A stretch of 64,000 nucleotides of DNA. It comes from Xanthomarina maritima. GTDB lineage: Bacteria; Bacteroidota; Bacteroidia; Flavobacteriales; Flavobacteriaceae. The DNA lies in assembly GCF_008084905.1 (NCBI RefSeq), contig NZ_VSFC01000062.1:181903-245902 (forward strand). Direction: 5' to 3'. Positions 41,635-64,000 of the stretch are shown piece after piece; position 1 is the stretch's first letter, and every line of letters starts with the position of its first letter. A model generated the notes under the pieces. That model was given only the letters and a program-made list of their open reading frames with translations. It ran no database searches and was not told the DNA's origin. The position numbers and the translations under genes are program-made.

Positions 41635-41650
41635 ATCCTAAAATTAGGAT
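41635..41650. repeat. Short perfect inverted repeat at the end of the pigment operon
   Basis: ATCCTAA (41635-41641) and TTAGGAT (41644-41650) around two bases, overlapping the stop codon of the ligase gene. The centre is too tight for a normal terminator and no T-run follows on the minus strand, so a protein-binding site or chance is as likely. Confidence 0.35.
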
Positions 41651-42942
41651 TCTGTTTTTCTATTATCAATTACCATAACAGGTTTTCTACTCATGATTGG
41701 GAATTGCAATTTTTGAATTTCCTTTTTATTGTGAATTTCTATTTTTGGAGACACACGTAATTTGGCTCTAAAATGATCTTTAATTTGCTGAAGTAATTTG
41801 TCTGTAGGATTTTTTACAGCTATTTTAATACAAATTTCATCTGTTCCAATCGTGTTGTTTGAAATTTCAATAATGTAGCTTTCAACTTCACTAAAATCGT
41901 TTAAAATATTATCCATTGCTGGAGGATATAATGTAGTTCCTTTATATTTAATCATTTGTTTTTTCCTGCCTACAACTGGTCCTAAGCGCATGGTATTTCT
42001 GCCACAATTGCATGGTTCTGTATGTGCTTGAACCATGTCTCCAGTTTTAAAACGAAGTAATGGCATGCCTTCAACACCTAAAGTCGTTATAGTAAGTTCA
42101 CCAACTTCATTAGCTGAAACAGGTTGGTCTTTTTCATCTAAAATTTCAACAATTATTAATTCTGGATGATGGTGCCCACCTTGTTGTTTTTCACATTCAT
42201 TAAAAGCTGTATTCATTTCTGTTGAAGCATACGTTGAAAACAACTCAATTTGCCATTGAGAGGTTATTTTTTCAGCTAAAGTATTCAACGAAAAATCCTG
42301 ATTTCTTAAAGGTTCGCCAATACAGATAGCTCCTTTTACTCCTGAATTATTTACATCGATATTATGTTGATTAGCATACTCAATCAATTTTAATAAAAAC
42401 GAAGGTACAGCAATTAGATAAGTTGGTTTAAATTTTAAAATAGAATCCCATTGCAATTCTGGAATTCCAGCTCCAACACGAATAATACCAGCTCCTAATT
42501 GTCTTGCTCCTAAAAAGTAAGCCAATCCAGCCATAAAACGTCTGTCTATAGTTGTCATTAGTTGCATGACATCGTTTTCTGAAACACCAGAACAAGCAAA
42601 AGACATGGCTTCGTTATAAGCCAAACGGTTTAAATCATTATCAGTTAAAGCAAAAGTTACTGGATCTCCCAATGTACCAGAAGTGGTTACATAATCGATA
42701 ATTTTGTTTTTAGGCACACATAAAAAATCGTTGTTATATTGTTGCAACTGATCTTTTGTAGTTGTAGGAATTTTTGTTAAATCTTCAAGAGTTGTAATAG
42801 AATTAATATCAATTTTTTGCTCTTTAAATACACGTTTATAATAAGGGGATTGTGTGTTTAAATAATTTAATAGACCTTTTAATTTATTCTCCTGAAAGGT
42901 TTTTATGTTTTCTGCTGATGCTTTTTCTATTTCGGGAATCAT
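41644..42942 (-). CDS. PaaK-like AMP-dependent acyl-CoA ligase
   Basis: 432-residue adenylate-forming enzyme of the phenylacetate-CoA ligase type. The P-loop-like motif is TTSGTLGDPVTFALT, the A5-type motif is STYASTEMNTAFNEC, and LRFKTGDMVQAHTEPCNCGRNTMRLGPVVGRK is the hinge. Two Cys in CNCGR occur in the PaaK family. In aryl polyene and flexirubin loci such an enzyme activates an aryl acid or acyl unit for loading onto ACP. It is the last gene of the operon, coupled to the C45 gene by an ATGA overlap. Confidence 0.85.
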   Translation of the reverse strand: MIPEIEKASAENIKTFQENKLKGLLNYLNTQSPYYKRVFKEQKIDINSITTLEDLTKIPTTTKDQLQQYNNDFLCVPKNKIIDYVTTSGTLGDPVTFALTDNDLNRLAYNEAMSFACSGVSENDVMQLMTTIDRRFMAGLAYFLGARQLGAGIIRVGAGIPELQWDSILKFKPTYLIAVPSFLLKLIEYANQHNIDVNNSGVKGAICIGEPLRNQDFSLNTLAEKITSQWQIELFSTYASTEMNTAFNECEKQQGGHHHPELIIVEILDEKDQPVSANEVGELTITTLGVEGMPLLRFKTGDMVQAHTEPCNCGRNTMRLGPVVGRKKQMIKYKGTTLYPPAMDNILNDFSEVESYIIEISNNTIGTDEICIKIAVKNPTDKLLQQIKDHFRAKLRVSPKIEIHNKKEIQKLQFPIMSRKPVMVIDNRKTES

Positions 42943-44609
42943 TCGTTTAGTTTCCTTTTAATCTTTTTAATATACAAATCTATCTGTTCTTGACTAGGAA
43001 CTGTTGTAATTTCTTTAGTTTTTGCTTCTTCAAAAGCATTTAAAGCTGCTCTATAATACTTTTTTTCGTAATAATATTTTCCTACTAAATAATAGGCTTG
43101 CCAATATTCTGGATTAGCATTCTGTAGTTCAGTAAGCATGATTGGGACAATATAATCGTCATTACTAATTGATTTTTCAATTTGTCTGCTTAAAATGCGA
43201 TATTTTTCATAGTCTAGATAGGCTTCTGTATATTGAAAAGAGTCTTCTTCAATAGTTAATGTTTTATTGTTTAATGGTAAAGCTTGATCATTATTTAAAG
43301 CTTCAGCAAAAACGGTATTTAGATTATAGGCTACAAACTCTCCTAATTGATACGGATTTGAAGAAACCCAAACCAAACGTTCTTCAGGTTTAAAAACAAT
43401 TCCATGATGTGCTAAAAGCTGGTTTAAGGCTTTTTCATTGCCATATCCAATATTTTTATCTTGTAGGCCTTCTTTATTTCTTAAGATATCTACTGCTATT
43501 TCTGGTGTTAGTTTTGGTGTTTCATTTAAAAGTTCTTCCATTCGTTCGTAACGATATTGCGAATGGCTTTCGGCTTTATGTTTGATGTTTTTTTCATCTT
43601 TTGCATAAGCATCACTTTGAAAGTGATTGGAACAGATTAACTGATCGGAATTTTCAACCTCATAAACACCAAAATTCTTTGGCGAGACTTCAATCGTAAT
43701 GGCTCGATTGTCATTGGAGCTTCCTATAAATATTGATTCTGATACAAAAACCTGACGTTTTTTAGCAATTTCAATAGCCTCTTCAATATTTGAAGCATAC
43801 TGTAAAATTTCTCGAGTAAGAATAGAAATAGGTGTTTTTGCCACCCAAGGAATACTCGATTTTCCAGCGTTAATAGTAACTGTTAAACCTTGATCGTTCA
43901 TTCCTGAAACAACTCCCAACATGCCAGCCCAAGTAACAGACATAAAATTGTAACCGTTTGTTGGTTTTACAAAAGCAACTATTTTATCTTTGGAAAAATC
44001 ATCTCCAGCATAAAAATCAAAATTTCTACCAATAATTAAATCGCCATCTTCGGTTTTATTTCCCCAAGCAGCAAAAGATGAACAGCCAACAAGCATAAGG
44101 TCTTGAAGCGCATGGCCAATATCGTGAGCACTATGGAAATAAAGAATTCTTAAATAATCGTCTGCCACATAATCATAGTCATCTCCTGCATATTTAGAAA
44201 CGCCTAAAATTTCAGCTTTGTATTCTTCAGGAATATGTAAATACATTTTACGGTTGTACCAAGCTAGAAGTTTTCGTAATAATTTTTGTTTTGATTTTGA
44301 AGGAACCAATTCATCAACCTTACTTAAAAAAGCATGTTCTTGTTTTTCAAAAAGTTCTTGAGTTAAACTACCAGTGTTTAATCCAATTTGATAAGGATCT
44401 CCAGTTACAAATAATTCCCATTGACCAGAAGAATTTTTTGTTAGATAACCATTATCTGTTGTAAATGATGTGTCTGATATTTTAGTGCGTTTGGGTAAAG
44501 CATCGTGATACATACTAACATCTGGAACATCTTTCAAGGAGTTAGAAACACCACAAGACACCAAGCTTAGTAGTAAGAACAATGATAATATGTAGGTTGC
44601 TAATCTCAT
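42939..44609 (-). CDS. C45-type acyltransferase/hydrolase lipoprotein
   Basis: 556 residues. Lipoprotein signal with Cys19 (LVSCG). The core is a C45/acyl-CoA:6-aminopenicillanate acyltransferase-like Ntn fold, with candidate nucleophile Cys176 in VGCSSFAAWG, followed by DGDLIIGRNFDFYAGD and GMNDQGLTVTINAG. The last ~100 residues are helical and TPR-like (YWQAYYLVGKYYYEKKYYRAALNAFEEAK). It would act on the periplasmic side and form or cut an amide or ester; a role in attaching the pigment acyl chain to a lipid is a guess. Coupled by ATGA overlaps on both sides. Confidence 0.82.
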   Translation of the reverse strand: MRLATYILSLFLLLSLVSCGVSNSLKDVPDVSMYHDALPKRTKISDTSFTTDNGYLTKNSSGQWELFVTGDPYQIGLNTGSLTQELFEKQEHAFLSKVDELVPSKSKQKLLRKLLAWYNRKMYLHIPEEYKAEILGVSKYAGDDYDYVADDYLRILYFHSAHDIGHALQDLMLVGCSSFAAWGNKTEDGDLIIGRNFDFYAGDDFSKDKIVAFVKPTNGYNFMSVTWAGMLGVVSGMNDQGLTVTINAGKSSIPWVAKTPISILTREILQYASNIEEAIEIAKKRQVFVSESIFIGSSNDNRAITIEVSPKNFGVYEVENSDQLICSNHFQSDAYAKDEKNIKHKAESHSQYRYERMEELLNETPKLTPEIAVDILRNKEGLQDKNIGYGNEKALNQLLAHHGIVFKPEERLVWVSSNPYQLGEFVAYNLNTVFAEALNNDQALPLNNKTLTIEEDSFQYTEAYLDYEKYRILSRQIEKSISNDDYIVPIMLTELQNANPEYWQAYYLVGKYYYEKKYYRAALNAFEEAKTKEITTVPSQEQIDLYIKKIKRKLNE

Positions 44610-46150
44610 GCTTTTTTTGATTTTGATGGTTTGTTAGCAGCAATAATTTTATCCAATAAAAACTCCTGACCTAAAATTTCCGAGCAAGTTACAACTGCTC
44701 CAATAGTAACCCCTAAAATACCATGCATGTTTAAACATTGTCCTGTAAATAACAGATTTTCAATTTTGGTTTTAGGTGAAATAAATGATTGCATAGATTT
44801 ATTTACATCTTTAGCATAACCATACATGGAACCACGATTTGTTGCAATATAATCTCTATAAGATAAAGGAGATGAGGTATAAGTTTCTTGAATACAATCT
44901 CTAATGTTTGGAAATTTTTTCTCTAATTCAACAATGATTTTTTCAGCTTTTTCTTTTTTGAATTCTTCATAAGTTTGTCCTCTTTCGTTTTTATTAGCAA
45001 CAGTGTTGAATGTTTGTTCCCAAGGTTCCACTTCTTCATAACGCATATATGTCATAATAGTCATATTATCTCCATATTCATCGTTGTTTTTCTTGATTCC
45101 CATGGATAACATATAATTTTCAGGCCAGCTTTCTTGTGTATATTGTTGCCCATTCCAAACGGCATCAACCGATTTAAAATGGTAATAATTTTTGTTTAAA
45201 TATTTAAAACAACCAGGTTTTAAAACAATATATAAACTAAAAGCTGCAATGGTACTTTCTATATTTTCAATTCTGTTAATGTAGGATTTACGTAATTTCC
45301 CATCATCAATTAGTTTTAGAGTGAGTTTTGGATCTATATTCGAAATAAATAAATCGCCTTTAATTTCATTGCCATTTTCACAAATAACGGAACTTATTTT
45401 GTCTTCTTCAAACTCAAATTTTATGGCTTCATGATATTTGTAAACTTCTCCACCAGCCTCCAAAAGTCTTCGGATTAATAATTTGGTTATTTGGCTACCT
45501 CCATTTAAACATCGATACGCACTTTGAATGTAAGAGTTTACTGATAAAGAATGGACATAAAATGGTGTTTTATAACCATCTCCAGCATACAAAAAATTAG
45601 TTCCAGCTAAGACAGCTTGTAAGCGCTTGTTATCTGTAATAGATTCTAGAAATGTTCTAATTTGTAATTTAAAAACACCGTCTGCATAAGGTCTTCCAAG
45701 TTTTAATCTGTATAGTGGAAACTTGTCGCATGTCTCTTTTATTTTATTGCAATAAGCTTGAATCGCTATTTCTTCTTCTGGAAAATCTTTAACTAAATTC
45801 TTGATGAATTTTTCGTAACCTTGAGCATATTTGTATTCTACTTCATCGTCGTCAAACGTAATAGCATCAAAGCCATCTTCATCCATTTTTTTAAGAGCAA
45901 GCTCATCCATAATACCCAAAAAATTGAAGTATTGATAAAGATTTTGTCCTTTGTCCAAACTCCCAACATAATGGACTCCAGTGTCGAATATGGATTTGTC
46001 TCTTACAAAAGTTTGAAGGTTGCCACCATACTGTTGGTTCTTCTCCAAGACACAAACACTGTAACCTTCTTTGGCAAGTATGACTGCTGAAACAAGTCCT
46101 CCCAAACCACTACCAACTATAACAATATCGTAATGTGACTTTGGTTTCAA
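44606..46150 (-). CDS. Phytoene-desaturase-like FAD-dependent oxidoreductase
   Basis: 514 residues from the TTG at 46150, which overlaps the upstream stop as TTGA in the same manner as the ATGA overlaps in the next two genes; another TTG ten codons earlier (46180) would overlap by 34 bases. N-terminal dinucleotide motif YDIVIVGSGLGGLVSAVIL and, at the end, FTGQCLNMHGILGVTIGAVV, as in CrtI, CrtD and retinol saturases. Likely desaturates, saturates or isomerises a polyene chain in pigment synthesis. Carotenoid genes are not seen nearby. Confidence 0.85.
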   Translation of the reverse strand: MKPKSHYDIVIVGSGLGGLVSAVILAKEGYSVCVLEKNQQYGGNLQTFVRDKSIFDTGVHYVGSLDKGQNLYQYFNFLGIMDELALKKMDEDGFDAITFDDDEVEYKYAQGYEKFIKNLVKDFPEEEIAIQAYCNKIKETCDKFPLYRLKLGRPYADGVFKLQIRTFLESITDNKRLQAVLAGTNFLYAGDGYKTPFYVHSLSVNSYIQSAYRCLNGGSQITKLLIRRLLEAGGEVYKYHEAIKFEFEEDKISSVICENGNEIKGDLFISNIDPKLTLKLIDDGKLRKSYINRIENIESTIAAFSLYIVLKPGCFKYLNKNYYHFKSVDAVWNGQQYTQESWPENYMLSMGIKKNNDEYGDNMTIMTYMRYEEVEPWEQTFNTVANKNERGQTYEEFKKEKAEKIIVELEKKFPNIRDCIQETYTSSPLSYRDYIATNRGSMYGYAKDVNKSMQSFISPKTKIENLLFTGQCLNMHGILGVTIGAVVTCSEILGQEFLLDKIIAANKPSKSKKA

Positions 46151-49100
46151 ATGGTATGTGTTTTTGTTAATATGATACAATTATCTTTTTGTTGAACTAC
46201 TTTAAAAGACTGTTTTTTAAATACTTCAGAATATAATTCAGAATCTGAATGTAATAAGATAATTTTTGTAAGCCCATTTAAAATTGTAGTTTCCAATTGT
46301 TTATTTGTTAAATTGATTGCGTCTAAAATAAGAACGTTAGCATTATTATTTAGAGTATCTTCAATTGTATCTAAAACTGAAATCTTATAATGATTATTGC
46401 TTATATAACTGTTTTTAACGATGTTGCTCACAGATTTGTTTTCAAAATAGGTATATATCTTTCTATCTGGTCTATCTAAAGCCAATAAGAAATCTAATTG
46501 TCCACAAGTTTTAGAAATATGCAGAATGCTATCTTTTTCTCCAACCGAATCCATGATGGTTTTGTAAGCTGTTCTATTAGTTTTTAAATCTAATTTCACC
46601 TGTTTATATAATGCATCTCCTTTATAACGAAACTCTTCTAAAACTACTTTGTGGAAATAGATATCATCTTCAATTTCCTGTCTAAAAGCATTAAATTGTT
46701 CTTTAAAGTATGCGCTTGTTTTTTTAGTAGTATCTCTAGTTGTTCCTAAAAATATATCATCTTCAAATGGTATTCTATCTAGTATTTTTACTGTAATGGC
46801 ACCACTTTTTATAACGAAATTTCCTTTAGGTAGCACTTCGGAATTTCCATGAATCATTACTGGAACAATGTCTAATTTAAATTGTTCAGCTAAAAAGAAA
46901 GCACCTTTATGGAAGCGTTTCATTTTATTGGTGTAAGAACGTGTGCCTTCAGGAAACGCCATTAAACTGTAACCTTGATCGACCTTCTTTTGTAAATGGT
47001 CAACTCCTTTTTCAATACCACTTGACACAGGATAAAAACCTGCAAGTTTTACTGCTTTTCCAAAAAATGGGGAGTTGTAAACCCAATCGTTTACCAAAAA
47101 AATAATTTTGGGATGCAACATGCCAATAGCCAAAATATCTAAAAATGATGTATGATTGGCTATAATCATGGCTTGTTTTTCAAATGTTTCGTTTGAATTG
47201 TTTATCACTTTTGTTTTAAAGAACGGATAAGAATCTAAAACCGATTTCATGAATTTCGACATGACTTTATGAAACCAATTCATTTTAATTTTCATACTAA
47301 TTGGTACCACTTTCATAAAAGCAATTCCAAGTAATGATAAAAATAAACCACCTAAACCATAATAAGTAAAAGAGATGGAAGAGTGAATAAACATGAGTAT
47401 TGGCGAAGGTCTGCTATTTTTACTGCCAATAAAAAATCCAAATAAAAGTGGTTGGATAGTAAACGAAATAAGCATTGCAGATAAAATACCAATTAGCGAC
47501 ACCATGGAAATACTATGTAAAGCTGGATGCTTAGCGAAAACAAGCACACCAACTCCCAAAATAGTAGTAATAACTGAAAGTAAAATAGAGGTTTTATGGG
47601 TAGGTAAGGAGCTTTCCCCAGTTCTTAATTCATGGAGCAAACCGTTAGTTATAAAAATGCTATAATCGATACCTAAACCAAAAATAAAAGTTGTAATAAT
47701 AATGTTGAAAATATTAAATTGAATATCCAACAAGCCCATAATTCCAATAGTTAAAAACCAAGTTAAAGCAATAGGAAGAAGCGTAACCAAGGTCAAAGAA
47801 AAACTGCGATAAAATAGTAACAGAAGCAGTAAAACAACTATAAATGAATAACCTACCAAACTATTGAAATCGGTTTTAAGGTTGCCCAAAAAGGTTTCAT
47901 TCATTTGTTTTCTATCGATAACTAAAGTTTTCGAGTTGTTTTCAAATTTATGAAACAAGTTTTCTGCTTGTTCGTCTTTTAACTTTACTAAGGTTGTTAT
48001 GGTTGTGAAACCTTCTTTTGAAGCAATGTAATCGTCAACCGAAATGGTTTTGAAAGCTTTAAAATCTTCTATACTTAATATGGCGAAATCTGAATCTAAA
48101 TGTTTGTAAAATTGCTGAAAACTATTAGGCTTGAATCCTAACTTAGAGCCACTATCAATTAGGTTTTCTTTAGTATTTAGTTTGGTTTCTTCAGACCAAA
48201 AATTATTCCAAGTGGCAAGCTGTATTTCTTGTATTTGGTTAGATTTTATTAAAGCACTTATAGAACTAAAACCAATGACACTATCTTTCTCCTTTAAATT
48301 TTTTAAGGTCGAAAAAATACTGTCGTTTGCCAGAAGTACTTCATCTTCATTTGTTCCGTATGCAGCAATATAAACAGATTTGGAATTAATATTGGTTAAA
48401 GCATCTAATCGGTCTTGAGCTTTACGAAGATTGGTTGGTTCAAAGTTTAAATTAGCTAAGTCGTTATTAAAAGTTACTTTGTTATAGGTGAAATAACTCA
48501 TAAAAAATAGTAACACCAATCCTATTAAAACCCATTTGTTTTTATGAAGTGGGTAAGATGCTACTTTATCAATAACAGTTGCCTTTTTTGTGGTTTTACT
48601 TTGTTCTTTATAAACTAGTGGAATAAAAATCAATGCAAAACACGAAGCACCAAGCACACTAATAGCTGCAAAAAGCCCAAGGTCTTGAAGCGCTTGAGAG
48701 TCTAAAAACAGCAAACATAAAAAAGCCAAAGCTGTTGTTAAACTACTCATTAAAATTGGCTTGGTAATTTCTTGATACAGGGCTTTTATGTTGTTATTAC
48801 TACGAATATGCGTTAAAATATGTAAGGCATAGTCTAAAGTGATACCTAGTAATACAGAGCCAATTCCTAAAGAAATTGCAGAAATTTTTGTTCGTATTAA
48901 AAATAATAAAGCTACTGCAAGTAAGGCACCAAAAGCAGTTGGTGTGAATAGAATTAGTGGCACACTTAGCTTTCTATAAAATACAATAAGAATTAATAGT
49001 AAGAATGTTATAGCAATACCAACGGTTAGTTGAATGTCTTTTTTTATTTGTTTAGCATTGGCTACTGCTACTAAAGCACCACCAAAATATTCGCTACTTA

Positions 49101-51764: not shown

Positions 51765-51784
51765 AATTTAATGGCTAATTATAT

Positions 51785-52656: not shown

Positions 52657-52663
52657 ATACGTT

Positions 52664-55262: not shown

Positions 55263-56320
55263 GTTTTAAGTAAAGTGAAACTATGATTTTCTCCACGATA
55301 CTGATTATAAAGTAAGATGTATTTATAGGAAGAAGTTTCTTTTTTATTTAGTTTTAAGATCTCAGGAAGTGTTTGTGTTTTCAATATTTTTAAAGCTACC
55401 CAAATACCCATAGGTGAAACTGTATTGAATTCGCCAAAAAGATGTTTGTAGCAAATTTGTTGTGTGTTATTAAAGATGGTTGAAGTTAGTTCATTATAAA
55501 ATCCATCAAATTTAAAATCACCATTATTTCCTAAAACAACAGCATCTATATCTTCGATATCCAAGTCGTTTTCTTTTAAAAAACTTAAAACTAATTCAGA
55601 AACCTCATTTTGAGATAAAGTATTATATATTTTAACTGAAACGACTTCAGCATAAGTTGATTCTTGTTTTTTATTGGCTAGCACAAAAAAACTAGCTCCT
55701 TCGCTAAACATAGACCCACTAGATTTAGATTCTAATAAGGTATTTGTTGTTACTTTTTCCTCTTTAATATGATGGATTAATTTATGTAGTTTGGTAGTAT
55801 GCTCTCCTAATTCATCAACGCCACCAATTAAAATATTTTGAGCTTCATCTAATTCTATTTGAAGTTTGGCATCTAATAAAGCAGATTCAAAGGAATTACT
55901 TCCATGCACATAAGTAAAATTATAACCTTTACATTGAAGTTCTAAGGCTATCTGTCCACCAACGGTATTGTGTGTAGATTGAATAAAGGATGTTGGTGTT
56001 AAAAACTGCTCGTTGTTATCAATAATACCACTTAAAAACTTTTCAGAATCACGTAAACAACCCATTCCAGTTCCAGTAATTATAGCGTCTACATTTTTTA
56101 AATTAGCTTCTTTTATAGCCATTTTAGAAGCTGCCACTCCCATTTTTATGCCTTTTGCCATACGTCTTGCAGCAGCAGGAGGAATGAAGTCTTTATAAAC
56201 AGGTTCTACAGCATATACTACTTGGTCTTCATGAATAATAACCTCGTCTAAAAACTCCGAATTATCGAATGTTTTTTGAGCTGAAATACAAGCTATGCTA
56301 TTGATGTAGACTTTTTTCAT
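55256..56320 (-). CDS. Ketosynthase-like protein lacking the catalytic triad (chain-length-factor-like)
   Basis: 354 residues of thiolase fold (Ketoacyl-synt_2-like). Recognisable blocks are IPPAAARRMAKGIKMGVAASKMAI and FIQSTHNTVGGQIALEL. The usual TACSSG stretch is replaced by HGSNSF, the HGT motif by GNNGD and the GHTxGA motif by GEFNTVS, so none of the Cys-His-His residues is kept. Such subunits pair with an active ketosynthase and set chain length, as ApeC and polyketide chain length factors do. It follows the active ketosynthase by 11 bases, its probable partner. Confidence 0.8.
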   Translation of the reverse strand: MKKVYINSIACISAQKTFDNSEFLDEVIIHEDQVVYAVEPVYKDFIPPAAARRMAKGIKMGVAASKMAIKEANLKNVDAIITGTGMGCLRDSEKFLSGIIDNNEQFLTPTSFIQSTHNTVGGQIALELQCKGYNFTYVHGSNSFESALLDAKLQIELDEAQNILIGGVDELGEHTTKLHKLIHHIKEEKVTTNTLLESKSSGSMFSEGASFFVLANKKQESTYAEVVSVKIYNTLSQNEVSELVLSFLKENDLDIEDIDAVVLGNNGDFKFDGFYNELTSTIFNNTQQICYKHLFGEFNTVSPMGIWVALKILKTQTLPEILKLNKKETSSYKYILLYNQYRGENHSFTLLKTC

Positions 56321-56331
56321 AGTTTAACCAA

Positions 56332-57534
56332 TTATTGTTCTTTAGAAAATATGACTGTTGAACAATTTCCACCAAAACCAAAGGAATTAGACATAACCGT
56401 TTGTAATGTTTTTTCTTTAAGCTTTAGTTGAGGTGTTATACTGAATTCTTTCATTTGAGTTTTAAAATTCAGATTTGGATAAATCACATTGTTTTGTAAT
56501 GCTAAAATAGAATAAACAGCTTCTATAGCTCCAGCAGCAGCAAGAGTATGTCCTGTATATGCTTTTGTGGAGCTGAATTCAGGAACATTTTCACCAAACA
56601 CTCGAATGATTGCTCTACCTTCAGATAAATCGTTATTTCCAGTAGCTGTTCCATGCGCATTAATGTAATCTATATCTTTAGCAGAATAACCAGCTACTTG
56701 TAAAGCTTTTTCCATGGCTAAAGTAGCTCCATCTCCATGATCTGATGAAGCAGTTTGGTGGAACGCATCATTCGCATTTCCATAACCTTTTATATATGCT
56801 AATACATTTTTATTTTCAGCTTTTACAACAGCATCAGATTCTAAAACTAAGTAAGCAGCTGCTTCACCTAAATTTAGCCCCTTTCTATTTTCGTCAAATG
56901 GTGTATTGTAAGTGTCTGAAAGAATCATTAAGGTTTTAAAACCATTAATGGTGAATTTAGACATACAGTCTGAACCTCCAACAATCACTCGATCTAATTG
57001 CCCAGATTTTATTAGCCTTGCTCCAAGCATGATGGCATTTGCGGCAGACGAGCAAGCTGTGCTAATAGTTGTTACTAGACTTTTATTTATACCTAATTGT
57101 TCGGCTATTTTTTGAGAGGAATCTCCAGCATGATGACCTTCAATATATTTATAATTTCTGTCACTTTCCAGATACTCGTAATAATACTGTTCAGTCATGT
57201 CCATTCCTCCAACACTTGTTGCTGAAACTAATCCAGTTTTATATGTATTGATGTCTTTAATACCAGCATTTGCAACAGCTTCTTTAGCAGCTAACACTCC
57301 TAGTAGTCCAGTTCTAGAATAATTGTTATCTGGAGATAAATCTAATAGTTGTTCTAGTTCAGAATTAGTATAAGCAATTTCACCAACCATAATCTCATCT
57401 TTATGAATGGTATCAATTTTTGAAATTCTAGAAATCCCTTTTTTAGCTTCAACAAGCGACTGAAAATTTTCTGCAACATTGTTTCCAATAGCAGAAATTA
57501 TTCCCATTCCAGTTATAGCAATTCCTTTACTCAT
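56332..57534 (-). CDS. Beta-ketoacyl-ACP synthase (active KAS II type)
   Basis: 400-residue elongating condensing enzyme. The triad is intact: Cys161 in STACSSAANA, His294 in NAHGTATGN and His329 in YTGHTLAAAG. GITGMGIISAIGNN at the N-terminus is canonical for FabF. It would extend the polyene chain with malonyl-ACP, together with the ACP encoded 106 bases upstream and the chain-length-factor-like protein downstream. Confidence 0.93.
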   Translation of the reverse strand: MSKGIAITGMGIISAIGNNVAENFQSLVEAKKGISRISKIDTIHKDEIMVGEIAYTNSELEQLLDLSPDNNYSRTGLLGVLAAKEAVANAGIKDINTYKTGLVSATSVGGMDMTEQYYYEYLESDRNYKYIEGHHAGDSSQKIAEQLGINKSLVTTISTACSSAANAIMLGARLIKSGQLDRVIVGGSDCMSKFTINGFKTLMILSDTYNTPFDENRKGLNLGEAAAYLVLESDAVVKAENKNVLAYIKGYGNANDAFHQTASSDHGDGATLAMEKALQVAGYSAKDIDYINAHGTATGNNDLSEGRAIIRVFGENVPEFSSTKAYTGHTLAAAGAIEAVYSILALQNNVIYPNLNFKTQMKEFSITPQLKLKEKTLQTVMSNSFGFGGNCSTVIFSKEQ

Positions 57535-57543
57535 ACTTATTTA

Positions 57544-57580: not shown

Positions 57581-57640
57581 AATTTATTAATTAAATATAA
57601 ATTGGTTTACTTCGAGTTTACTATCTACACAGGAATTTGT

Positions 57641-57898
57641 TTATTTAGATCTATGCTCAGTAATGTAGGCAGCCATTGTATTGATAGATTCAAAAATAGC
57701 ACGACCTTCTTTTGGGTCTGTTAATTTTATACCATAGTTTTTATCCAGCATAACAATAAGTTCTAAAGCATCAATAGAATCAAGTGCTAAACCATCTCCA
57801 AAAAGCATGTCATCATCTGCAATATCTTCTACTGTCATATCTTCAAGGTTTAATTGCTCGATAATGTTTTCTTTTAATTCTTGTTTTAAAGCTTCCAT
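57641..57898 (-). CDS. Acyl carrier protein
   Basis: 85 residues, acidic, four-helix ACP. The phosphopantetheine attachment Ser41 lies in LALDSIDALELIVML (DSI instead of the more usual DSL). It would carry the growing aryl polyene or acyl chain for the operon's ketosynthases and dehydratase. It lies one base from the short ketosynthase-like gene upstream. Confidence 0.93.
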   Translation of the reverse strand: MEALKQELKENIIEQLNLEDMTVEDIADDDMLFGDGLALDSIDALELIVMLDKNYGIKLTDPKEGRAIFESINTMAAYITEHRSK

Positions 57899-57899
57899 A

Positions 57900-58517
57900 T
57901 TATGTATTATATAATGTTATTATGTTCTGTTTATTGTGTTCTAATGTACCTTCTTTTGAAACCAAATATAAAAAGGCTTCATAATTTTCTCCTTCTAATT
58001 CTACCCATCCACAAAGCACTGATTCTGCTTTATTTGTGTCTAACAGACTATTTGAATTTGCAATTAGATGTTCTGCATTAAAGTGTTCAAAGATAAAAAA
58101 ACTATTTTCAGTATATAGTTTATATTTAATACTTATCTCACCAAGACAAATATTAGGTAAGGTATATACAAAAACAGCTGGACTTGGAAAATAATTATCT
58201 TTATGCTGTATGGCTTTTTGGTGCGATATATCTGTATCTAAACTTGAAGCTTTATTAGAAAACACCAATGCTATATTATTGTTGTTTTCCACATTTAAGT
58301 TTTGTTTTTTGAGTAAAATATCTGCTGCCAAAAAAGCTAACTTACTCAAGTTATCCATTTTAAAAAACTTTGGATATTTTGTATTTTGTGCTTTGTAAGC
58401 AGCTTTTATGAAATTTGTAAAAATTGAATGCTCTTCAATAAATATAACAGAACCATTTAAAGAAACTTGATTATTCTTTATATGAATATAAGATGATATG
58501 TTATATTTAGAATTCAA
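57900..58517 (-). CDS. Short ketosynthase-like protein, probably non-catalytic
   Basis: 205 residues. It reads like the N-terminal half of a ketosynthase: FFKMDNLSKLAFLAADILLKK, IALVFSNKASSLDTD, FPSPAVFVYTLPNICLGEISIKYKLYTENSFFIF and ESVLCGWVELEG fit the order of motifs, but the TACxS stretch is replaced by FIFEHF with no Cys and the C-terminal His motifs are missing. Proteins of this kind occur in flexirubin and polyene loci with unknown function, perhaps as structural partners of a ketosynthase. Confidence 0.65.
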   Translation of the reverse strand: MNSKYNISSYIHIKNNQVSLNGSVIFIEEHSIFTNFIKAAYKAQNTKYPKFFKMDNLSKLAFLAADILLKKQNLNVENNNNIALVFSNKASSLDTDISHQKAIQHKDNYFPSPAVFVYTLPNICLGEISIKYKLYTENSFFIFEHFNAEHLIANSNSLLDTNKAESVLCGWVELEGENYEAFLYLVSKEGTLEHNKQNIITLYNT

Positions 58518-58518
58518 T

Positions 58519-59586
58519 TTATAGTTCCTTTTTTTTACAAACTAGAATGGTATGATATTCTCCAACAGCTATATCTTCTTTTAATTCTAATCCAGCTTTA
58601 TCAATTAACTTCATAAATACTTTTGCTGAATACATTTTAGAATTACCATTTGCCATAACTGTAAAGTAAAGTGATGTAGCTTCAAGAGCAAATTTGGCAT
58701 TATCAAATCGTTGACGATCTGTAAATGTTTCCATGATTAGAATTTCACCATCATCTTTTATTGCTGCAGCACAAGCTTTTAAGATGGTTAAAATTTCTTC
58801 TTCAGAAAAACAATCCAAAAATTGACTCATCCAAATGGTATCTGCACCTTTTGGTAGTTGAGGATTTTCAGACAACCAATCTATTTCATGATGTGTTACT
58901 CGATCTTGAAAACCAGCTTCTTTGATATTATTTAAAGCAATTTTTAATTGTCCTGGTAAATCGACCATTTTTATAGAAACAGTATCGTTGTATCTACTAC
59001 CGCTAATAGCAAATTTTCCAGTGTTTGCACCAACATCGTATATGGTTTTTGGGTTGTTTCTAAAAACGGTTTCTAAGGCTTCTTGAAACACATCGTCAGA
59101 ATAATGATGATCAAATTCAAACCATGCTTTTTGAACTTCAGGTGTTAGTTGAGATAGACCTTCGTAAACCGTATTCCAATTCCCTAATACTTTTAATCCT
59201 GCTGGTTTTCCTGTTTTAATGGCTTCATTTAAATAAAATAAGCCTTGATAACAAACATCTTGAGTGAAGTTAATATTGACATCAACTGTTTTATGATAAT
59301 TTAAATAATAACCTATAGTTGTTAATTCATAGTTATCATTTTCGTTTTTTGAAACAATATTAGAACTTTCAGAAATTTCTAGTAAAACACCTACTCCATA
59401 TGCGCTAAGCGATAATTCTTTTGCAATTTCTTCTATAGAAATACCTCCTTTTTTTCTTCTTTCAAAAATTAAATCGAAAATACCAAGTTTACGTAATGAA
59501 ACAACAGCTTGAAAGACAAATGGAGCAAAAGCAATTTTTTGTGCTTCTTGAATTGCATCTATAGCTTTAATTGAGTTTTTAGACAT
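58519..59586 (-). CDS. SAM-dependent O-methyltransferase (Methyltransf_2 type)
   Basis: 355 residues from the ATG at 59586, which overlaps the upstream ketosynthase by eight bases like other junctions here; a start 18 codons earlier would overlap by over 60 bases. N-terminal winged-helix dimerisation domain (PFVFQAVVSLRKLGIFDLI, EELSLSAYGVGVLLEI), then the SAM fold with YDVGANTGKFAIS, ADTIWMSQFLDCFSEEEIL and LIMETFTD. Related to plant and bacterial O-methyltransferases and to CrtF. It probably methylates an aryl hydroxyl of the pigment. Confidence 0.88.
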   Translation of the reverse strand: MSKNSIKAIDAIQEAQKIAFAPFVFQAVVSLRKLGIFDLIFERRKKGGISIEEIAKELSLSAYGVGVLLEISESSNIVSKNENDNYELTTIGYYLNYHKTVDVNINFTQDVCYQGLFYLNEAIKTGKPAGLKVLGNWNTVYEGLSQLTPEVQKAWFEFDHHYSDDVFQEALETVFRNNPKTIYDVGANTGKFAISGSRYNDTVSIKMVDLPGQLKIALNNIKEAGFQDRVTHHEIDWLSENPQLPKGADTIWMSQFLDCFSEEEILTILKACAAAIKDDGEILIMETFTDRQRFDNAKFALEATSLYFTVMANGNSKMYSAKVFMKLIDKAGLELKEDIAVGEYHTILVCKKKEL

Positions 59587-60739
59587 GATTTTTAGTTTGG
59601 TTTGATTTTTTAAATATGATGGCTGTATTGCAACCTCCAAAACCAGAAGCGGTTTTTAAAAAGGTATTCAATTCTTTTGATGTGGTTTTTTTAATAACAT
59701 TGATTGGTTTTGAAACTCCTAATTTTTTAAATCCTTTCGAAGCGTAAAGCGTGTTGTTGTTTAAAGAGTGCATTCCAACGATGGTTTCCAATAATCCAGA
59801 TGCACCTAAGGTATGACCGAAATAGCCTTTTAAACTATTTAATGGAACATCTTGTAACTCTAATCTGTTAATAGCAATGGCTTCCATTTCATCGTTGAAC
59901 ATGGTTGCTGTTCCATGAGCAGAAATATAATCGATATCTCTTGCTGTCATGTTTGCTTGAGTTAATGCAGCTATCATGCTTTTGTATAAACCTTCACCTG
60001 TTCTTGAAGGACCAGAAATATGGTTGGCATCGTTACAAGAACTTTCGCCAAGAATTTCAACGGCTTCTTTTGAAAGATTAGAACTATTAGTTACTAGAAC
60101 ACTTGCTGCAACTTCGCCAATATTAATTCCTGATCTATTTTTATCGTAAGGTTTACAAGGCTCATTACTTAATGCCTGAAACGAATTGAAACCAGATAGA
60201 ATAAATTCAGTAACAACATCTCCACTTACAATAAAAACATGGTCATACATGTTTTGTTGAATATATCTTTTTGCAATGGCAACTGATAAAATACCAGAAA
60301 CACAAGCGTTAGAAACTATAATAGCTTCGTTTTTAAAGCCAAAAAATTCTTTGATATTATTTCCTAATTCACTTAAATAAGCACGTTCTTTTGGAAATGG
60401 ATTATTGTCATCTAAGGCATCTATATTGCCTTTAGTTGTTGAAATAATTAAGCCAACACGATCGTTTATTTCAATATTGGAAGTTTTGACAACTTCGTTT
60501 AAAGACGTTATCATCATCTTTTCTAATCTCGTATAATCTTCTTTAGGTTGAAGTTTTTTAAATGCTTCGTTCAGTTTTTTAGAATCAATTAAAGCTGAGT
60601 AGAAAGGTTCTGGAAGAGCTTGTGAATTTTCAATTAACTTTAAACCAGACACTTCGTTATGTACATTTTCAACAACAGTTTTGCTGTCAAAACCTAGTGA
60701 CGAAATAATGTTGTTATATGATAGATATGTTCTATTCAT
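59579..60739 (-). CDS. Beta-ketoacyl-ACP synthase (second active ketosynthase)
   Basis: 386 residues from the ATG at 60739 (8-base overlap with the thioesterase gene); a GTG at 60754 is the alternative. Triad present: Cys146 in VSNACVSGILS, His275 in SAHGTATMF and His309 in YFGHTLGASG. The sequence is more divergent than the other ketosynthase of the operon (VSNACVSG for STACSSA), so it may act at a different stage, for example at initiation with an aryl starter. Between thioesterase and methyltransferase genes. Confidence 0.9.
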   Translation of the reverse strand: MNRTYLSYNNIISSLGFDSKTVVENVHNEVSGLKLIENSQALPEPFYSALIDSKKLNEAFKKLQPKEDYTRLEKMMITSLNEVVKTSNIEINDRVGLIISTTKGNIDALDDNNPFPKERAYLSELGNNIKEFFGFKNEAIIVSNACVSGILSVAIAKRYIQQNMYDHVFIVSGDVVTEFILSGFNSFQALSNEPCKPYDKNRSGINIGEVAASVLVTNSSNLSKEAVEILGESSCNDANHISGPSRTGEGLYKSMIAALTQANMTARDIDYISAHGTATMFNDEMEAIAINRLELQDVPLNSLKGYFGHTLGASGLLETIVGMHSLNNNTLYASKGFKKLGVSKPINVIKKTTSKELNTFLKTASGFGGCNTAIIFKKSNQTKNHV

Positions 60740-61184
60740 CCAATAAACCTTCACTTTTTTTCCAATCCATAAAGAAAGAAGGAATGGTTAACCACAAATC
60801 ACCTTCACCTATTTTATCTACAAACACCTGAATGGTTTCTCCAGTACAAACTAATTGTTCATTCTGATTATAAATTTCATAACGGAATATCATTTTAGCA
60901 GCTTGACTATCTACATAAATGGTTTTAATAGTAGCAATATCACCATATCTTAAAGGTAGTTTATGGTCTGTACTTGATTTTACAATAGGAGTTGCAAAGC
61001 CATATTTTTTTTGATCTAAATAAGAAATACCATGATGTCTTCCAAAAGCTTCACGACCATCTTCGAAATACTGTATGTAATTGCCATGCCAAACAATTCC
61101 CAAAGGATCTGTTTCTACAAAGCGAACACGTACTTGACTTGTATGCGTAATTTCTTTTGGTTTAGGCTGTGTTTTTCTTTTCAT
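60732..61184 (-). CDS. Acyl-CoA/ACP thioesterase (4HBT, YbgC type)
   Basis: 150-residue hotdog-fold thioesterase. RFVETDPLGIVWHGNYIQYFEDGREAFGR contains Asp26 and the WHGNYxxYFE block of 4-hydroxybenzoyl-CoA thioesterases. It could release the product from ACP or clear stalled chains. It overlaps the ABC permease gene upstream by 23 bases and the ketosynthase downstream by eight. Confidence 0.9.
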   Translation of the reverse strand: MKRKTQPKPKEITHTSQVRVRFVETDPLGIVWHGNYIQYFEDGREAFGRHHGISYLDQKKYGFATPIVKSSTDHKLPLRYGDIATIKTIYVDSQAAKMIFRYEIYNQNEQLVCTGETIQVFVDKIGEGDLWLTIPSFFMDWKKSEGLLDE

Positions 61185-62427
61185 TATAAACTATGGCAAT
61201 TGATGTGGTTGCTATAAAAAACAAGAATAGTAATGTAATTTCTGGTAAAATATCTAATAGAGAACCATGACGCAAAAATACATCGTAAAATGCATTTAAA
61301 CCCCAATTCATTGGCGAAATATTAGAGAGTGTTTGCATGAATTTTGGCATAATAAATACGGGAACCCAAACACCACCAAGAGCTGCTAATATAACGACAA
61401 ACGTTGCCCCAAAAGGAGCTGATTGTTCTTGTGTTTTTGCAATGGTTCCTAATAATAATCCTAAGCCAATAGCAGCTAATCCAGCAAAAATGGCTACTAT
61501 AAAGAGGAGTGGTAATCTCCCAGAAATATCTAATGTTGGTAAGCCAATAGCTGGGAATAAATAGACTCCAACTAACAACATTAACACAAATTGAATAAGG
61601 CAAACTACTAGGTAAATAAGTGTTTTTCCACCTAAAACGGCTGCATAAGACACAGGATTTGTACGTAATCTAACAAATGTTCCTTGACTTTTTTCTTTAA
61701 CAATGTTGATTGAAAGTGGTACTATTATAAAAAAGATGGCAAACAAAGTCCAAGCTGGAACGTTATGTTGAACCGAGTTTGGAATATATTCTTCGTTGTC
61801 TTTTTTAGGTAGTATCTCTTTAAATATGATAAAGTTTTCTGTTTCAAATATAGCTTCTGTTGGATCGTCGGTAATTTCTTCTTGAAAGGCTTTATAAATA
61901 GACTCTGTTTCTATTTTTGACACCATTTTATCAATGCCATTTTTCACAGAACTTTTAAAAGTCATTTGAGTAGCAGGATCGAAGTAAAGTTTCACTTCTT
62001 TACTTTCAATAGTTGCTTTAGGAAGACTATCTGATTCTTCAAGACCAAATTTTTCAATAATACCATCGACATTTTGTGCTACTTTTTGTTCCAATCCAGT
62101 CGTTAAGTTTTCAGGAATAATAATAGCTAATTGATATTTTCCTTTAAAGACAAGATCTTTTGCTATATCTTCGGAGTTTTTTATATTTACTTCAAATGTA
62201 TTCGATTCTTCTAATCCTTTTAAGATGGTTTCTGAGACATTGCCTTGATCATTATTAACAACTAGAATAGGAATTTTAGCATCTGTAACCGTTTTAAACG
62301 TACTGTCTTGAATTAAAGTAATGGTTACAATTAAGACTAAAGGCATAACAAATAGGATGGCAATACCTCCAATATCTCTGATGAGTAATAAAAACTCTTT
62401 ATATGCTGAAGCCATTAATTTATGCAT
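61162..62427 (-). CDS. ABC-2 type transporter permease
   Basis: 421 residues: one N-terminal membrane helix (IGGIAILFVMPLVLIVTITLI), a large extracytoplasmic loop of about 190 residues, then five helices at the C-terminus (WTLFAIFFIIVPLSINIV, LIYLVVCLIQFVLMLLVGVYLF, LLFIVAIFAGLAAIGLGLLLG, FVVILAALGGVWVPVFIM and the last one). This is the layout of the YhhJ/ABC2_membrane_3 group of exporters. With the ATPase encoded upstream (8-base overlap) it would export a lipid or pigment precursor. Confidence 0.9.
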   Translation of the reverse strand: MHKLMASAYKEFLLLIRDIGGIAILFVMPLVLIVTITLIQDSTFKTVTDAKIPILVVNNDQGNVSETILKGLEESNTFEVNIKNSEDIAKDLVFKGKYQLAIIIPENLTTGLEQKVAQNVDGIIEKFGLEESDSLPKATIESKEVKLYFDPATQMTFKSSVKNGIDKMVSKIETESIYKAFQEEITDDPTEAIFETENFIIFKEILPKKDNEEYIPNSVQHNVPAWTLFAIFFIIVPLSINIVKEKSQGTFVRLRTNPVSYAAVLGGKTLIYLVVCLIQFVLMLLVGVYLFPAIGLPTLDISGRLPLLFIVAIFAGLAAIGLGLLLGTIAKTQEQSAPFGATFVVILAALGGVWVPVFIMPKFMQTLSNISPMNWGLNAFYDVFLRHGSLLDILPEITLLFLFFIATTSIAIVYNEKKNTA

Positions 62428-63163
62428 GATCTCTTAAGGCTTTTCCAGTTATACTTATAAAAACATCTTCCAGATTGTGTGAACCTTTGCTAGTTTCAAT
62501 TAACTCTTTTGGTTTCCCTTTAATAATTAATTTTCCGTGATCTATTATGGCTACTCGTGTACAAAAAGTTTCAGCTTCATTTAAGTGATGCGACGTGTAA
62601 ATGATTGTAGTTCCATTTTTATTTAATTCTTGAAGGAATTCAATAATCACGTTTTTTGATTGTACATCCACTCCAACCGTTGGTTCATCTAAAAACAACA
62701 CTTTAGGATTGTGAAGAATGCTTGCAATTAAATTAACACGACGTTTCATGCCTCCAGAAAATGTATCAATTTTCTTATTGGAAAATGATAGAAGTCCTAG
62801 ATGTTCTAGAGATTTGTTTATTTTTTCGTCAAGAGATTTTCCTTTTAAACCATACATACTTCCAAAATATTTTAAATTTTCGAAAGCTGTTAACGAAGGA
62901 TACAAAGCATACTCTTGAGGAACAATACCTATAAGTTGCTTCAGTTGGTTTTTATTTTTTTGATAAGTTAAACCATCAATAGAGAAGGAGCCTGATGTTG
63001 GTTTAATAAGAGAACATAAAATAGAAATCAATGTGGTTTTTCCGGCTCCATTTGGGCCTAATAAACCAAAAATTTCTTTTTCATGAATGAGCAGGTTTAA
63101 ATCAGATAACGAGTAATTATCTGCATTTTTATATTTTTTAGATATGTGCTCAATGTTTATCAT
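62420..63163 (-). CDS. ABC transporter ATP-binding protein (exporter type)
   Basis: 247 residues with Walker A GPNGAGKTT, Q loop GIVPQEYALYPSLTAFEN, signature FSGGMKRRVNLIASI and Walker B VLFLDEPTVGVD with switch His in YTSHHLNEAE. The EQYALYPSLT-like region and GMKRRV form are those of DrrA/CcmA-type exporters, matching the ABC-2 permease it overlaps. One base separates it from the BtrH-like gene. Confidence 0.95.
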   Translation of the reverse strand: MINIEHISKKYKNADNYSLSDLNLLIHEKEIFGLLGPNGAGKTTLISILCSLIKPTSGSFSIDGLTYQKNKNQLKQLIGIVPQEYALYPSLTAFENLKYFGSMYGLKGKSLDEKINKSLEHLGLLSFSNKKIDTFSGGMKRRVNLIASILHNPKVLFLDEPTVGVDVQSKNVIIEFLQELNKNGTTIIYTSHHLNEAETFCTRVAIIDHGKLIIKGKPKELIETSKGSHNLEDVFISITGKALRDHA

Positions 63164-63164
63164 A

Positions 63165-64000
63165 TTACTTAATTGCCAATTTTAATTTTTTAAAGAAGAT
63201 TTCTTCTTTATCTGCAATTACTTCTAATTGAAGAGCTACATGGTTGTAAGCATCTTCTTTAGCACTTCGGTTTTTATAAATTCTTGAAGCATCTACAGCA
63301 AAATCACGCCATGAATCACCAATCAATGTCATTTCTTTTGACAGCTCAGAAAGGTCTGGCTTGTTTAAAATTTTGCTTGATTCTTGTAAGAATGCTGCAA
63401 AAATATATCTGAAACCTCCACCACCAGTTCCAATTTCTTCCTGCATTCTAACTATTTGACCCAAGTAATGATTGGCTTTTTTAACACCTTTCTTCTTTGG
63501 CCATTTTCTAATAAGTTTGGCAGTATGTCTAATACCTTTAACACCTAAAACAGGAATTGGAGCAAGCATATCTTTACAAGTATGCTTAATGCCTTTAACT
63601 ATGGCTTTTTCTAAATCTAATTCTTTAGGGAAATCTACAGGATAATAAATATGTCCTTTAGGAGCAAAAGCACCTTTAGCAAAACGAACTTTTTCTAATT
63701 CTTTTTCTGTTAGTGTCGTTACCGTTTCCATAACTGGATCGCTAATTAAGTACGTATCGTTTTCTTTTCCGTAAACCACTAAATTATGCGCATTAAAGTG
63801 AAAACGATATTCGTCTGGGAAATATACCAAATTATAAACACCAACCTGAAGACCTACTGGATTGTTATTTTTTAAATTCTCATCTAATCTGGCTTTTGCT
63901 TGTTGTGGTTTTTTAAACTTTTCACGTTTAATTTTAATGCCAACACGTTTAGCAAAACGTTTAAAAATTATGCCAGGTAAGGCTCTATAAGTAAATGCTG
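63165..64000 (-). CDS. BtrH N-terminal/DUF4872-like protein (5' end outside window)
   Basis: The frame is open to the right edge of the window, so the N-terminus is beyond it; 277 residues are visible. The upstream part (LPGIIFKRFAKRVGIKIKREKFKKP, LKNNNPVGLQVGVYNLVYF) and FHFNAHNLVVYGKENDTYLISDP resemble the papain-like BtrH N-terminal fold (GLQ..H..V), followed by a helical C-terminal part like DUF4872. BtrH moves an acyl group from ACP to an amine or hydroxyl in butirosin synthesis; an acyl transfer role in this locus is plausible. The catalytic Cys would lie outside the window. Confidence 0.75.
   Translation of the reverse strand, partial: AFTYRALPGIIFKRFAKRVGIKIKREKFKKPQQAKARLDENLKNNNPVGLQVGVYNLVYFPDEYRFHFNAHNLVVYGKENDTYLISDPVMETVTTLTEKELEKVRFAKGAFAPKGHIYYPVDFPKELDLEKAIVKGIKHTCKDMLAPIPVLGVKGIRHTAKLIRKWPKKKGVKKANHYLGQIVRMQEEIGTGGGGFRYIFAAFLQESSKILNKPDLSELSKEMTLIGDSWRDFAVDASRIYKNRSAKEDAYNHVALQLEVIADKEEIFFKKLKLAIK

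Follow-up and report, generated by a model that had tools for sequence, protein, structure and literature searches.

A predicted flexirubin gene cluster in Xanthomarina maritima and a small protein family found beside the genes of two polyene-pigment pathways

Flexirubins are yellow-orange outer-membrane pigments of Bacteroidota, and as a cluster the locus presented here is of an ordinary, already-known type. In the accessible text of a Flavobacteriaceae survey of 1,234 biosynthetic gene clusters, flexirubin ranked second in abundance among the predicted products (PMC10734526). The Flavobacterium johnsoniae flexirubin cluster, credited to McBride 2009 (cited in PMC3992019), spans 37 kb and is described in the available part of that article as containing darA/darB, an ammonia-lyase and a CoA ligase, as in the present cluster (with a DarA-like gene for darA), and likewise LolA2/LolB2, AAT, LpxL-like and glycosyltransferase genes, a likeness by description and not by sequence or gene order. 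Chitinophaga pinensis (Cpin_1853-1877 flx plus dar) has the FlxA, FlxB, FlxY, FlxJ and Dar families in common with our locus, but its dar (Cpin_6850/6851) and flx genes form two loci according to the same text (PMC3992019), whereas the present cluster is contiguous. The dar module of arcuflavin from Azoarcus BH72 contains darA, to which a DarA-like gene corresponds here, and, as here, darB, a BtrH-like gene, an ABC pair and an ACP, and its polyene part carries a halogenase gene, to which a halogenase-like gene corresponds in our cluster; that polyene part differs in having a chorismatase/XanB2-type gene, with no ammonia-lyase mentioned in the accessible text (PMC3949708).

We analysed a window of 64,000 nucleotides of X. 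maritima contig NZ_VSFC01000062.1. A first-pass annotation of this stretch had proposed an operon of at least 20 minus-strand genes cut by the window edge. The ORF listing gave 22 co-directional genes at 41644-64000, and the operon does run over the edge: DarH continues to 64163 and the whole cluster comprises 33 co-directional genes, which occupy about 31.7 kb (41644-73349 in window-equivalent numbering), and a flavin halogenase-like gene in divergent orientation. The genes are listed below, with counts referring to 23 clusters with DarB (DAR+) and nine without (DAR-).

41644..42942, minus strand: FlxY, 4-coumarate:CoA ligase, final cluster gene (NCBIfam NF053551, 758 bits, cut-off 520)
42939..44609, minus strand: AAT/C45-family autoproteolytic acyltransferase or hydrolase (PF03417; NF040521, 253 bits over 85)
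44606..46180, minus strand: CrtI-like FAD oxidoreductase (Pfam NAD_binding_8/Amino_oxidase)
46147..49839, minus strand: MMPL exporter with a fused PlsC-type acyltransferase domain at residues 880-996 (PF03176, PF01553)
49832..51028, minus strand: glycosyltransferase family 2 with DUF2062 (Pfam)
51108..51764, minus strand: small accessory protein, no family match in Pfam/NCBIfam (6/23 DAR+, 0/9 DAR-)
51785..52282, minus strand: 165-aa protein, helical and hydrophobic at the N-terminus, matching nothing in Pfam or NCBIfam
52291..52689, minus strand: FabA/FabZ-like dehydratase, DH3 (PF07977)
52664..53287, minus strand: outer-membrane beta-barrel, accessory (PF13568/PF13505; 13/23 DAR+, 0/9 DAR-)
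53284..53901, minus strand: LolB2 (NCBIfam NF053540, 265 bits, cut-off 60)
53876..54493, minus strand: LolA2 (NCBIfam NF053544, 247 bits, cut-off 125)
54486..55262, minus strand: polysaccharide-deacetylase-like protein (PF01522)
55256..56320, minus strand: ketosynthase-like, chain-length-factor-like protein (PF13723/PF00109)
56332..57534, minus strand: ketosynthase, TACSSA active site (PF00109/PF02801 and motif)
57641..57898, minus strand: acyl carrier protein (NCBIfam NF006617, 86 bits over 70)
57900..58517, minus strand: short ketosynthase-like protein (weak fabF match, E 9.5e-06; 23/23 DAR+, 9/9 DAR-)
58519..59640, minus strand: FlxJ-family methyltransferase (NF053543, 446 bits, below cut-off 560)
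59579..60754, minus strand: ketosynthase, NACVSG active site (Pfam and motif)
60732..61184, minus strand: 4HBT thioesterase (PF13279; TIGR00051, 82 bits over 69)
61162..62427, minus strand: ABC-2 permease, DAR module (PF12698; 23/23 DAR+, 0/9 DAR-)
62420..63163, minus strand: ABC ATPase, DAR module (PF00005; 23/23 DAR+, 1/9 DAR-)
63165..64000, minus strand: DarH, BtrH-related acyltransferase, 3' part, same frame to 64163 (NF053550, 518 bits over 300)
Beyond the window, minus strand, in order past DarH:
DarG (NCBIfam, 214 bits, cut-off 170)
two FabZ-like proteins
DarB, beginning 1.5 kb past the window edge (NCBIfam, 673 bits, cut-off 550)
DarA-like protein
LpxL-like protein
acyl carrier protein
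ketosynthase
FlxB ketoreductase (NCBIfam, 417 bits, cut-off 340)
WG-repeat protein
FlxA ammonia-lyase, ending at 73349 (NCBIfam, 893 bits, cut-off 700)
73458-74702, plus strand: divergent flavin halogenase-like gene (PF04820, Trp_halogenase, 92 bits)

From the listed starts, the 21 within-window junctions measure -4, -4, -34, -8, +79, +20, +8, -26, -4, -26, -8, -7, +11, +106, +1, +1, -62, -23, -23, -8 and +1 bases. The spacing described earlier, overlaps of 4 to 23 bases or tiny gaps, suits many of them, but overlaps reach 62 bases (a value depending on an assumed GTG/TTG start) and there are gaps of 79 and 106. Pfam/NCBIfam recovered the functions that had been named from the letters, namely ketosynthases, ACP, FabA/FabZ-like dehydratase, 4HBT thioesterase, methyltransferase, AMP ligase, CrtI-like oxidase, LolA, MMPL and ABC exporter. 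Two of them needed correction. The MMPL protein has the additional fused PlsC-type domain listed above. As for the wording 'O-methyltransferase', a methyltransferase is present, probably with its true start at an internal ATG, but it is FlxJ-like and the 'O-' is a Pfam label only, because labelling in C. pinensis places the methyl group of flexirubin on the aryl ring (accessible text of PMC3992019). Two downstream genes, an OYE gene (38945-40018) and one with no assigned function (40092-41549), were left out of the cluster since they occurred in 2/23 and 1/23 DAR+ stretches, respectively.

Judged by its sequence, the locus is very probably (about 0.96) a complete, typical flexirubin biosynthetic gene cluster of a Xanthomarina-type flavobacterium. 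Eight proteins exceeded curated NCBIfam flexirubin/DAR cut-offs (FlxA, FlxB, FlxY, DarB, DarG, DarH, LolA2 and LolB2), the first six of which uphold the flexirubin-type assignment made from the window, and the DarG/DarH plus LolA2/LolB2 accessory set was thus 4/4 above cut-off. The type II PKS/FAS set was complete by Pfam/NCBIfam (KS, ACP, KR as FlxB, DH). The first-pass annotation was right that the window lacks the ammonia-lyase and DarA/DarB; reading the same contig beyond 64000 revealed FlxA, ending 9.4 kb past the edge, DarB and a DarA-like gene; the annotation would have counted a lack of ammonia-lyase, ligase and reductase nearby against itself, and FlxA, FlxY and FlxB are all there. 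Among relatives' loci fetched via DarB (80 of 148 relatives retained), FlxA, FlxB, DarA, DarB, DarG, DarH, the ABC pair and the halogenase-like gene were matched in 63/63 loci of at least 21 kb, a count in which paralogous ketosynthases and ACPs may substitute for one another because presence meant a best match of at least 45 bits. FlxA was above cut-off in 7/7 same-genus genomes. Xanthomarina species are reported as flexirubin-positive and Bizionia arctica as test-negative in the available text of PMC12943765; as B. arctica belongs to the same genus by genome classification and carries the same cluster, the cluster does not guarantee pigment.

Within 159 family genomes, our own included, FlxY was above cut-off in 35, DarB in 27 and FlxY without DarB in nine, all of which entered the comparison of 23 DAR+ with nine DAR- clusters. 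A gene counted as present if a match in the fetched stretch of roughly 40 kb scored 35 bits or more with coverage above 40%; two fetched stretches, G006 (which meets a contig end) and G030 (in which FlxA and FlxB alone were present), did not enter the comparison. The AAT/C45 and glycosyltransferase family 2/DUF2062 genes were found in 23/23 DAR+ and 9/9 DAR- clusters, while the CrtI-like gene was found in 23/23 and 2/9. In 7/9 DAR- clusters no alignment reached the MMPL acyltransferase domain. FlxJ was missing from 10/23 DAR+ clusters, and the halogenase-like gene was scored missing in three (G004, G005 and G008), where partial matches lay at the stretch ends. The single ABC ATPase among DAR- clusters was a 65-bit match outside the cluster of G126, which also had a weak DarB match (61 bits). 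In a six-gene tree of 33 clusters, seven clusters with the aryl polyene only grouped with G068, and G116 stood apart; therefore the counts are not independent, the DAR contrast resting on about two changes and a second set (KS_C, ACP1, CrtI-like, LolB2 and the MMPL acyltransferase domain) on about one. DarB itself is no evidence here, since DAR- genomes were picked by its absence. By this contrast the genes fall into two groups, an aryl-polyene core and a DAR module; natural DAR-less clusters offer a simple way to assign many unplaced genes to either.

In the pathway that we propose, FlxA would deaminate tyrosine to 4-coumarate and FlxY would load this as a CoA ester, both by family membership. 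Ser79-His80 occupy the FlxA selectivity site, a pair that we take to be HAL-like. The tyrosine-specific FlxA of C. pinensis has the same Ser-His residues, and FlxA and FlxY of that species were assayed biochemically (accessible text of PMC3992019). Pairs of ketosynthase and chain-length-factor-like protein, ACPs, FlxB and FabZ-like dehydratases may then extend the chain to an aryl polyene; the 55256..56320 protein lacks the active-site Cys, with HGSNSF at residue 139 where its paralogue has TACSSA. By their literature roles, DarB would join two fatty-acid-type units and DarA, with a predicted flavodoxin fold, would aromatise the ring to the dialkylresorcinol (DAR). DarA has no family model in Pfam/NCBIfam and was assigned here by position and predicted fold: the model has a mean pLDDT of 92 with WrbA/flavodoxin structure matches, and in 80/80 loci DarB is preceded, on its own strand and at no more than 400 bp, by a DarA match. 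Its annotated plasmid homologues were only three Streptomyces 'hypothetical proteins' with 28-29% identity. Decoration of the ring may fall to the FlxJ-type methyltransferase and the halogenase-like protein. The latter, a Trp_halogenase family member, carries WFWVIP at 215, FLDPVFSSG at 298 and K73, which aligns with the Lys of chains 3e1t and 5bul; WxWxIP, FxxPxxSxG and a catalytic Lys are presumably hallmarks of flavin-dependent halogenases, which makes it a candidate. It fell below every NCBIfam cut-off among its best 25 of 57 families (top CmlS, 164 bits versus 900). The MMPL and ABC exporters with the LolA2-LolB2 pair would take the pigment to the outer membrane.

Could the product be something other than flexirubin? 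A plain aryl-polyene lipid without a dialkylresorcinol moiety, which the first-pass annotation had kept in view, does occur in relatives, as the nine genomes with FlxY but no DarB illustrate; it is unsupported here and highly improbable, because the present cluster contains open frames for the DarA-like protein, DarB, DarG, DarH and the DAR-linked ABC pair. A primary fatty-acid synthesis or carotenoid operon mistaken for a pigment cluster has a practically negligible probability: the ketosynthases match fabF-type models, but below cut-off, and the CrtI-like protein matches carotenoid desaturases weakly, reaching no NCBIfam cut-off, carotenoid families included, among its best 25 of 73 families. 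Moreover, the genome's single phytoene/squalene synthase match lies on another contig (C29) and the flexirubin equivalogs, FlxA, FlxY, DarB and DarG among them, are above their cut-offs.

For a flexirubin, the enzyme forming the ester can be argued over, and DAR-less clusters make this a testable matter. We lean slightly towards DarH, in which C13, H122, H126 and D142 are invariant in 17 sequences and which, with this invariant Cys/His/Asp, may transfer the polyene acyl chain to the DAR. Two other candidates for this reaction, the AAT/C45 protein (42939-44609) and the MMPL-fused PlsC-type domain, seem unlikely, even though each comes from an acyltransferase family and the fused domain, retained by 2/9 DAR- clusters, also aligns in the DAR+ clusters inspected (G019 and G040). 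In favour of an enzyme other than DarH there is also the 'ligase-like' FlxW that Schoner et al. put forward for this step, for which the available text offers no assay (PMC3992019). AAT does not track DAR, being present in 9/9 DAR- clusters, while DarH tracks it strictly, both locally (23 versus 9 clusters) and genome-wide (9/9 versus 0/9), over about two independent changes.

The sole part of the cluster that we think may be new is the small family of the 165-aa protein (51785-52282), common to two polyene-pigment pathways. Its gene was found in 23/23 DAR+ and 0/9 DAR- clusters, and genome-wide in 9/9 and 0/9. The AF2 model has a mean pLDDT of 90, and since Foldseek against the PDB returned nothing at E<=0.001 we give it no fold name. 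The accessible portions of PMC10784355 and PMC2889829 mention neither 'hypothetical' nor 'unknown function'. We tentatively suggest that the family might handle polyenes that are neutral and fully hydrophobic, a role that would account for its lack in clusters with the aryl polyene only; as a guess, its members could be helical proteins, anchored in the membrane or periplasmic, that scaffold, shield or insert such polyenes. If the family acts on the pigment, the handling of very hydrophobic polyenes would seem to include a shared step.

The family is co-located with DAR and with carotenoid genes. A phylum sample of 148 genomes yielded 27 with a match, 19 of them without DarB at E<=1e-120, so the tie to DAR is limited to Flavobacteriales and G282; G203, whose DarB-like match falls short of the cut-off, gave none to the 165-aa protein. 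Profile A4, in which row L179 begins nine residues after its likely start, was built partly from carotenoid-side matches, and its search is therefore not independent of the first phylum search. Our genome has one copy, and no relative was found beside its phytoene synthase. Distant relatives adjoin carotenoid genes in 18/20 fetched loci, two of them weak (L189 and L190, 27-31% identity to carotenoid-side queries), a neighbour count that leaves out G195 and the added A4-profile genome G300; at L173 no pigment gene was found nearby. In Bacteroidota carotenoid operons (crtI-crtB-...), whose pathway is unrelated to flexirubin, these relatives stand next to crtB (phytoene synthase), and in one fetched locus a distant relative lies immediately ahead of darA.

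The first-pass annotation had proposed a flexirubin or aryl polyene operon at 41644-64000 cut by the window edge. In the window (C27:181903-245902, within a 3.04-Mb draft genome of 62 contigs), 22 minus-strand genes extend from FlxY (41644-42942) to the edge. We read the next 30 kb of the same contig (fetched stretches L003 and L004); window positions equal the L003 position p + 58098.

Features past the window edge
to 64163, minus: DarH, remainder past the edge
64153-64563, minus: DarG
64570-65456, minus: two FabZ-like proteins
65458-66591, minus: DarB
66605-67525, minus: DarA-like protein
67530-68411, minus: LpxL-like acyltransferase
68432-68674, minus: ACP
68682-69899, minus: ketosynthase
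69913-70644, minus: FlxB
70689-71816, minus: WG-repeat protein
71829-73349, minus: FlxA
73458-74702, plus: flavin halogenase-like gene, divergent

FlxA, DarB and a DarA-like protein were all present. The 33 genes from FlxY through FlxA are co-directional, and 29 of their 32 junctions overlap or leave at most 20 bases, the exceptions being gaps of 44, 79 and 106. The genes downstream of FlxY were absent from most relatives' stretches, and the protein beyond the halogenase-like gene had no family match in the Pfam and NCBIfam search. Eight proteins exceeded the curated cut-offs (in brackets) of NCBIfam flexirubin/dialkylresorcinol (DAR) models: FlxA 893 bits (700), FlxB 417 (340), FlxY 758 (520), DarB 673 (550), DarG 214 (170), DarH 518 (300), LolA2 247 (125) and LolB2 265 (60). 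Therefore, the grounds named for rejecting a flexirubin reading, flanks devoid of ammonia-lyase, ligase or reductase genes, do not apply here. The locus as a whole makes up a complete cluster for flexirubin, and its novelty is limited to adding a member; the sorting of the DAR-module genes and an unnamed 165-aa protein deserve brief specialist attention.

In the proposed pathway, FlxA would convert tyrosine to 4-coumarate and FlxY would activate it to 4-coumaroyl-CoA. FlxA carries Ser79-His80, which we take to be a HAL-like pair. This agrees with motif 1 of Chitinophaga pinensis FlxA, HAL-like in a protein that nevertheless uses tyrosine only, and both steps were demonstrated in C. pinensis, according to PMC3992019, which also mentions chlorinated flexirubins. 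The chain would be elongated by an ordinary ketosynthase with a neighbouring partner lacking the active-site Cys (HGSNSF where the ketosynthase has TACSSA), a partner that resembles a chain-length factor. DarA is a 'DAR-aromatase' in a table of PMC3949708. Its predicted structure (mean pLDDT 92) combines a flavodoxin-like domain with a helical C-terminal part, and its best PDB matches include WrbA and flavodoxins, the receptor entries among them being flavodoxin fusions according to one entry title; because of this predicted fold, FMN-dependent ring oxidation would suit DarA. DarH kept Cys13, His122, His126 and Asp142 in 17/17 aligned sequences, the pattern expected for a Cys-His-Asp acyltransferase. 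The halogenase-like protein has a Lys73 that aligns with the Lys of known halogenases, and it keeps two motifs, WFWVIP and FLDPVFSSG; the solved structure closest to it, 3nix, bears only the title 'Flavoprotein/dehydrogenase'.

DarB was missing from 9 of the 35 family genomes bearing FlxY, and we compared the gene content of 23 DarB+ clusters with those nine, a contrast that rests on about two changes since a 33-cluster tree puts the DAR-less clusters in two places. DarA, the second FabZ-like protein, DarG, DarH, the ABC permease and the 165-aa protein were found in 23/23 DarB+ and 0/9 DarB- clusters, the ABC ATPase in 23/23 and 1/9 (a 65-bit match outside the cluster), and the WG-repeat protein in 21/23 and 0/9. 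An earlier report on Azoarcus (PMC3949708, in part) describes a dar module that includes BtrH-like and ABC genes. For LolB2, the CrtI-like protein, one of the ketosynthases and one of the ACPs, which form a second set, the counts were 23/23 and 2/9; the same two DarB- clusters kept the PlsC-type domain of the MMPL exporter. All 32 clusters contained the AAT/C45-family (AAT) protein, the LpxL-like protein, LolA2, the glycosyltransferase, the thioesterase, three further ketosynthase-type proteins and a short ketosynthase-like protein. DarH also tracks DAR genome-wide (9/9 DAR+ and 0/9 DAR- genomes searched), and this distribution argues for DarH, over the AAT protein, as the putative former of the ester. 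FlxY was present in 9/9 DarB- and 20/23 DarB+ clusters; it was missing from the fetched stretch in G018, G040 and G053 (L129/L130, L133/L134 and L135/L136), and a genome-wide search of G018 gave no match at E<=1e-100. In such clusters a different ligase may start the chain, or the pathway may be broken.

The cluster is common: FlxA exceeded its cut-off in 7/7 same-genus genomes and 21/60 genomes, and FlxY and DarB did so in 35/159 and 27/159 family genomes (own genome counted in the 60 and the 159). DarB fetched 80 loci, the best 80 of 148 relatives, all with a DarA match directly upstream of DarB. All 63 loci that spanned 21 kb or more had matches to FlxA, FlxB, DarA, DarG, DarH and the ABC pair, as well as to the halogenase-like gene, which diverged from FlxA in each of them. 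One contig of Tamlana nanhaiensis (NZ_JTDV01000010.1) carries two DarB-bearing loci (L072, L074) about 190 kb apart, possibly including a second flexirubin or DAR cluster. A table in PMC12943765, seen in part, gives three Xanthomarina columns as flexirubin-positive and Bizionia arctica as negative, yet antiSMASH detects a cluster there; expression or growth conditions may explain this. In G005, taken as B. arctica (L123/L124), all cluster genes were matched at >=91% coverage, bar the halogenase-like gene, cut by the end of the fetched stretch.

Window positions 43900-49700 (and 50100-50500), about 6 kb that take in the end of the AAT gene and the greater part of both the CrtI-like and the MMPL gene, were mostly 95-100% identical to the Xanthomarina spongicola-like genome G002 (200-base steps; one step 88%), versus 78-90% elsewhere in the cluster (1-kb steps). 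Part of the pigment cluster was thus probably replaced by homologous DNA in recent times.

The 165-aa protein (51785-52282, minus) had no match in Pfam or NCBIfam. An all-helical domain after a hydrophobic N-terminus was predicted (mean pLDDT 90), and this model had no PDB match at E<=0.001. The protein occurred genome-wide in 9/9 DAR+ and 0/9 DAR- genomes; the present genome has a single copy, on a different contig from phytoene synthase. A profile built solely from flexirubin-cluster sequences matched 28 places, which lay in 27 of the 148 phylum genomes searched; eight of the 27 had DarB above cut-off. A combined profile matched 28/148 genomes. Glu99, Arg104, Pro112 and Asp124 were invariant in 14 sequences. 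We fetched 20 of the 21 places outside Flavobacteriales: 18 lay within 300 bp of a carotenoid-gene match (16 firm, 2 weak), one had no such match nearby, and in L179, from another family of the class, the relative was directly upstream of DarA. In Bacteroidota, DAR modules and carotenoid operons thus have this unnamed 165-aa family in common (window 51785-52282 and loci L173-L192). Family models verified the neighbours in six loci (L174, L175, L178, L184, L187, L191), with phytoene/squalene synthase beside the relative in L174, L175, L187 and L191, and carotenoid desaturase or lycopene-cyclase models above cut-off nearby in L175, L178 and L184. The gene order was crtI, crtB, 165-aa relative, IPP isomerase and crtD in L175, and crtD, lycopene cyclase, 165-aa relative, crtB-like and crtI in L184.
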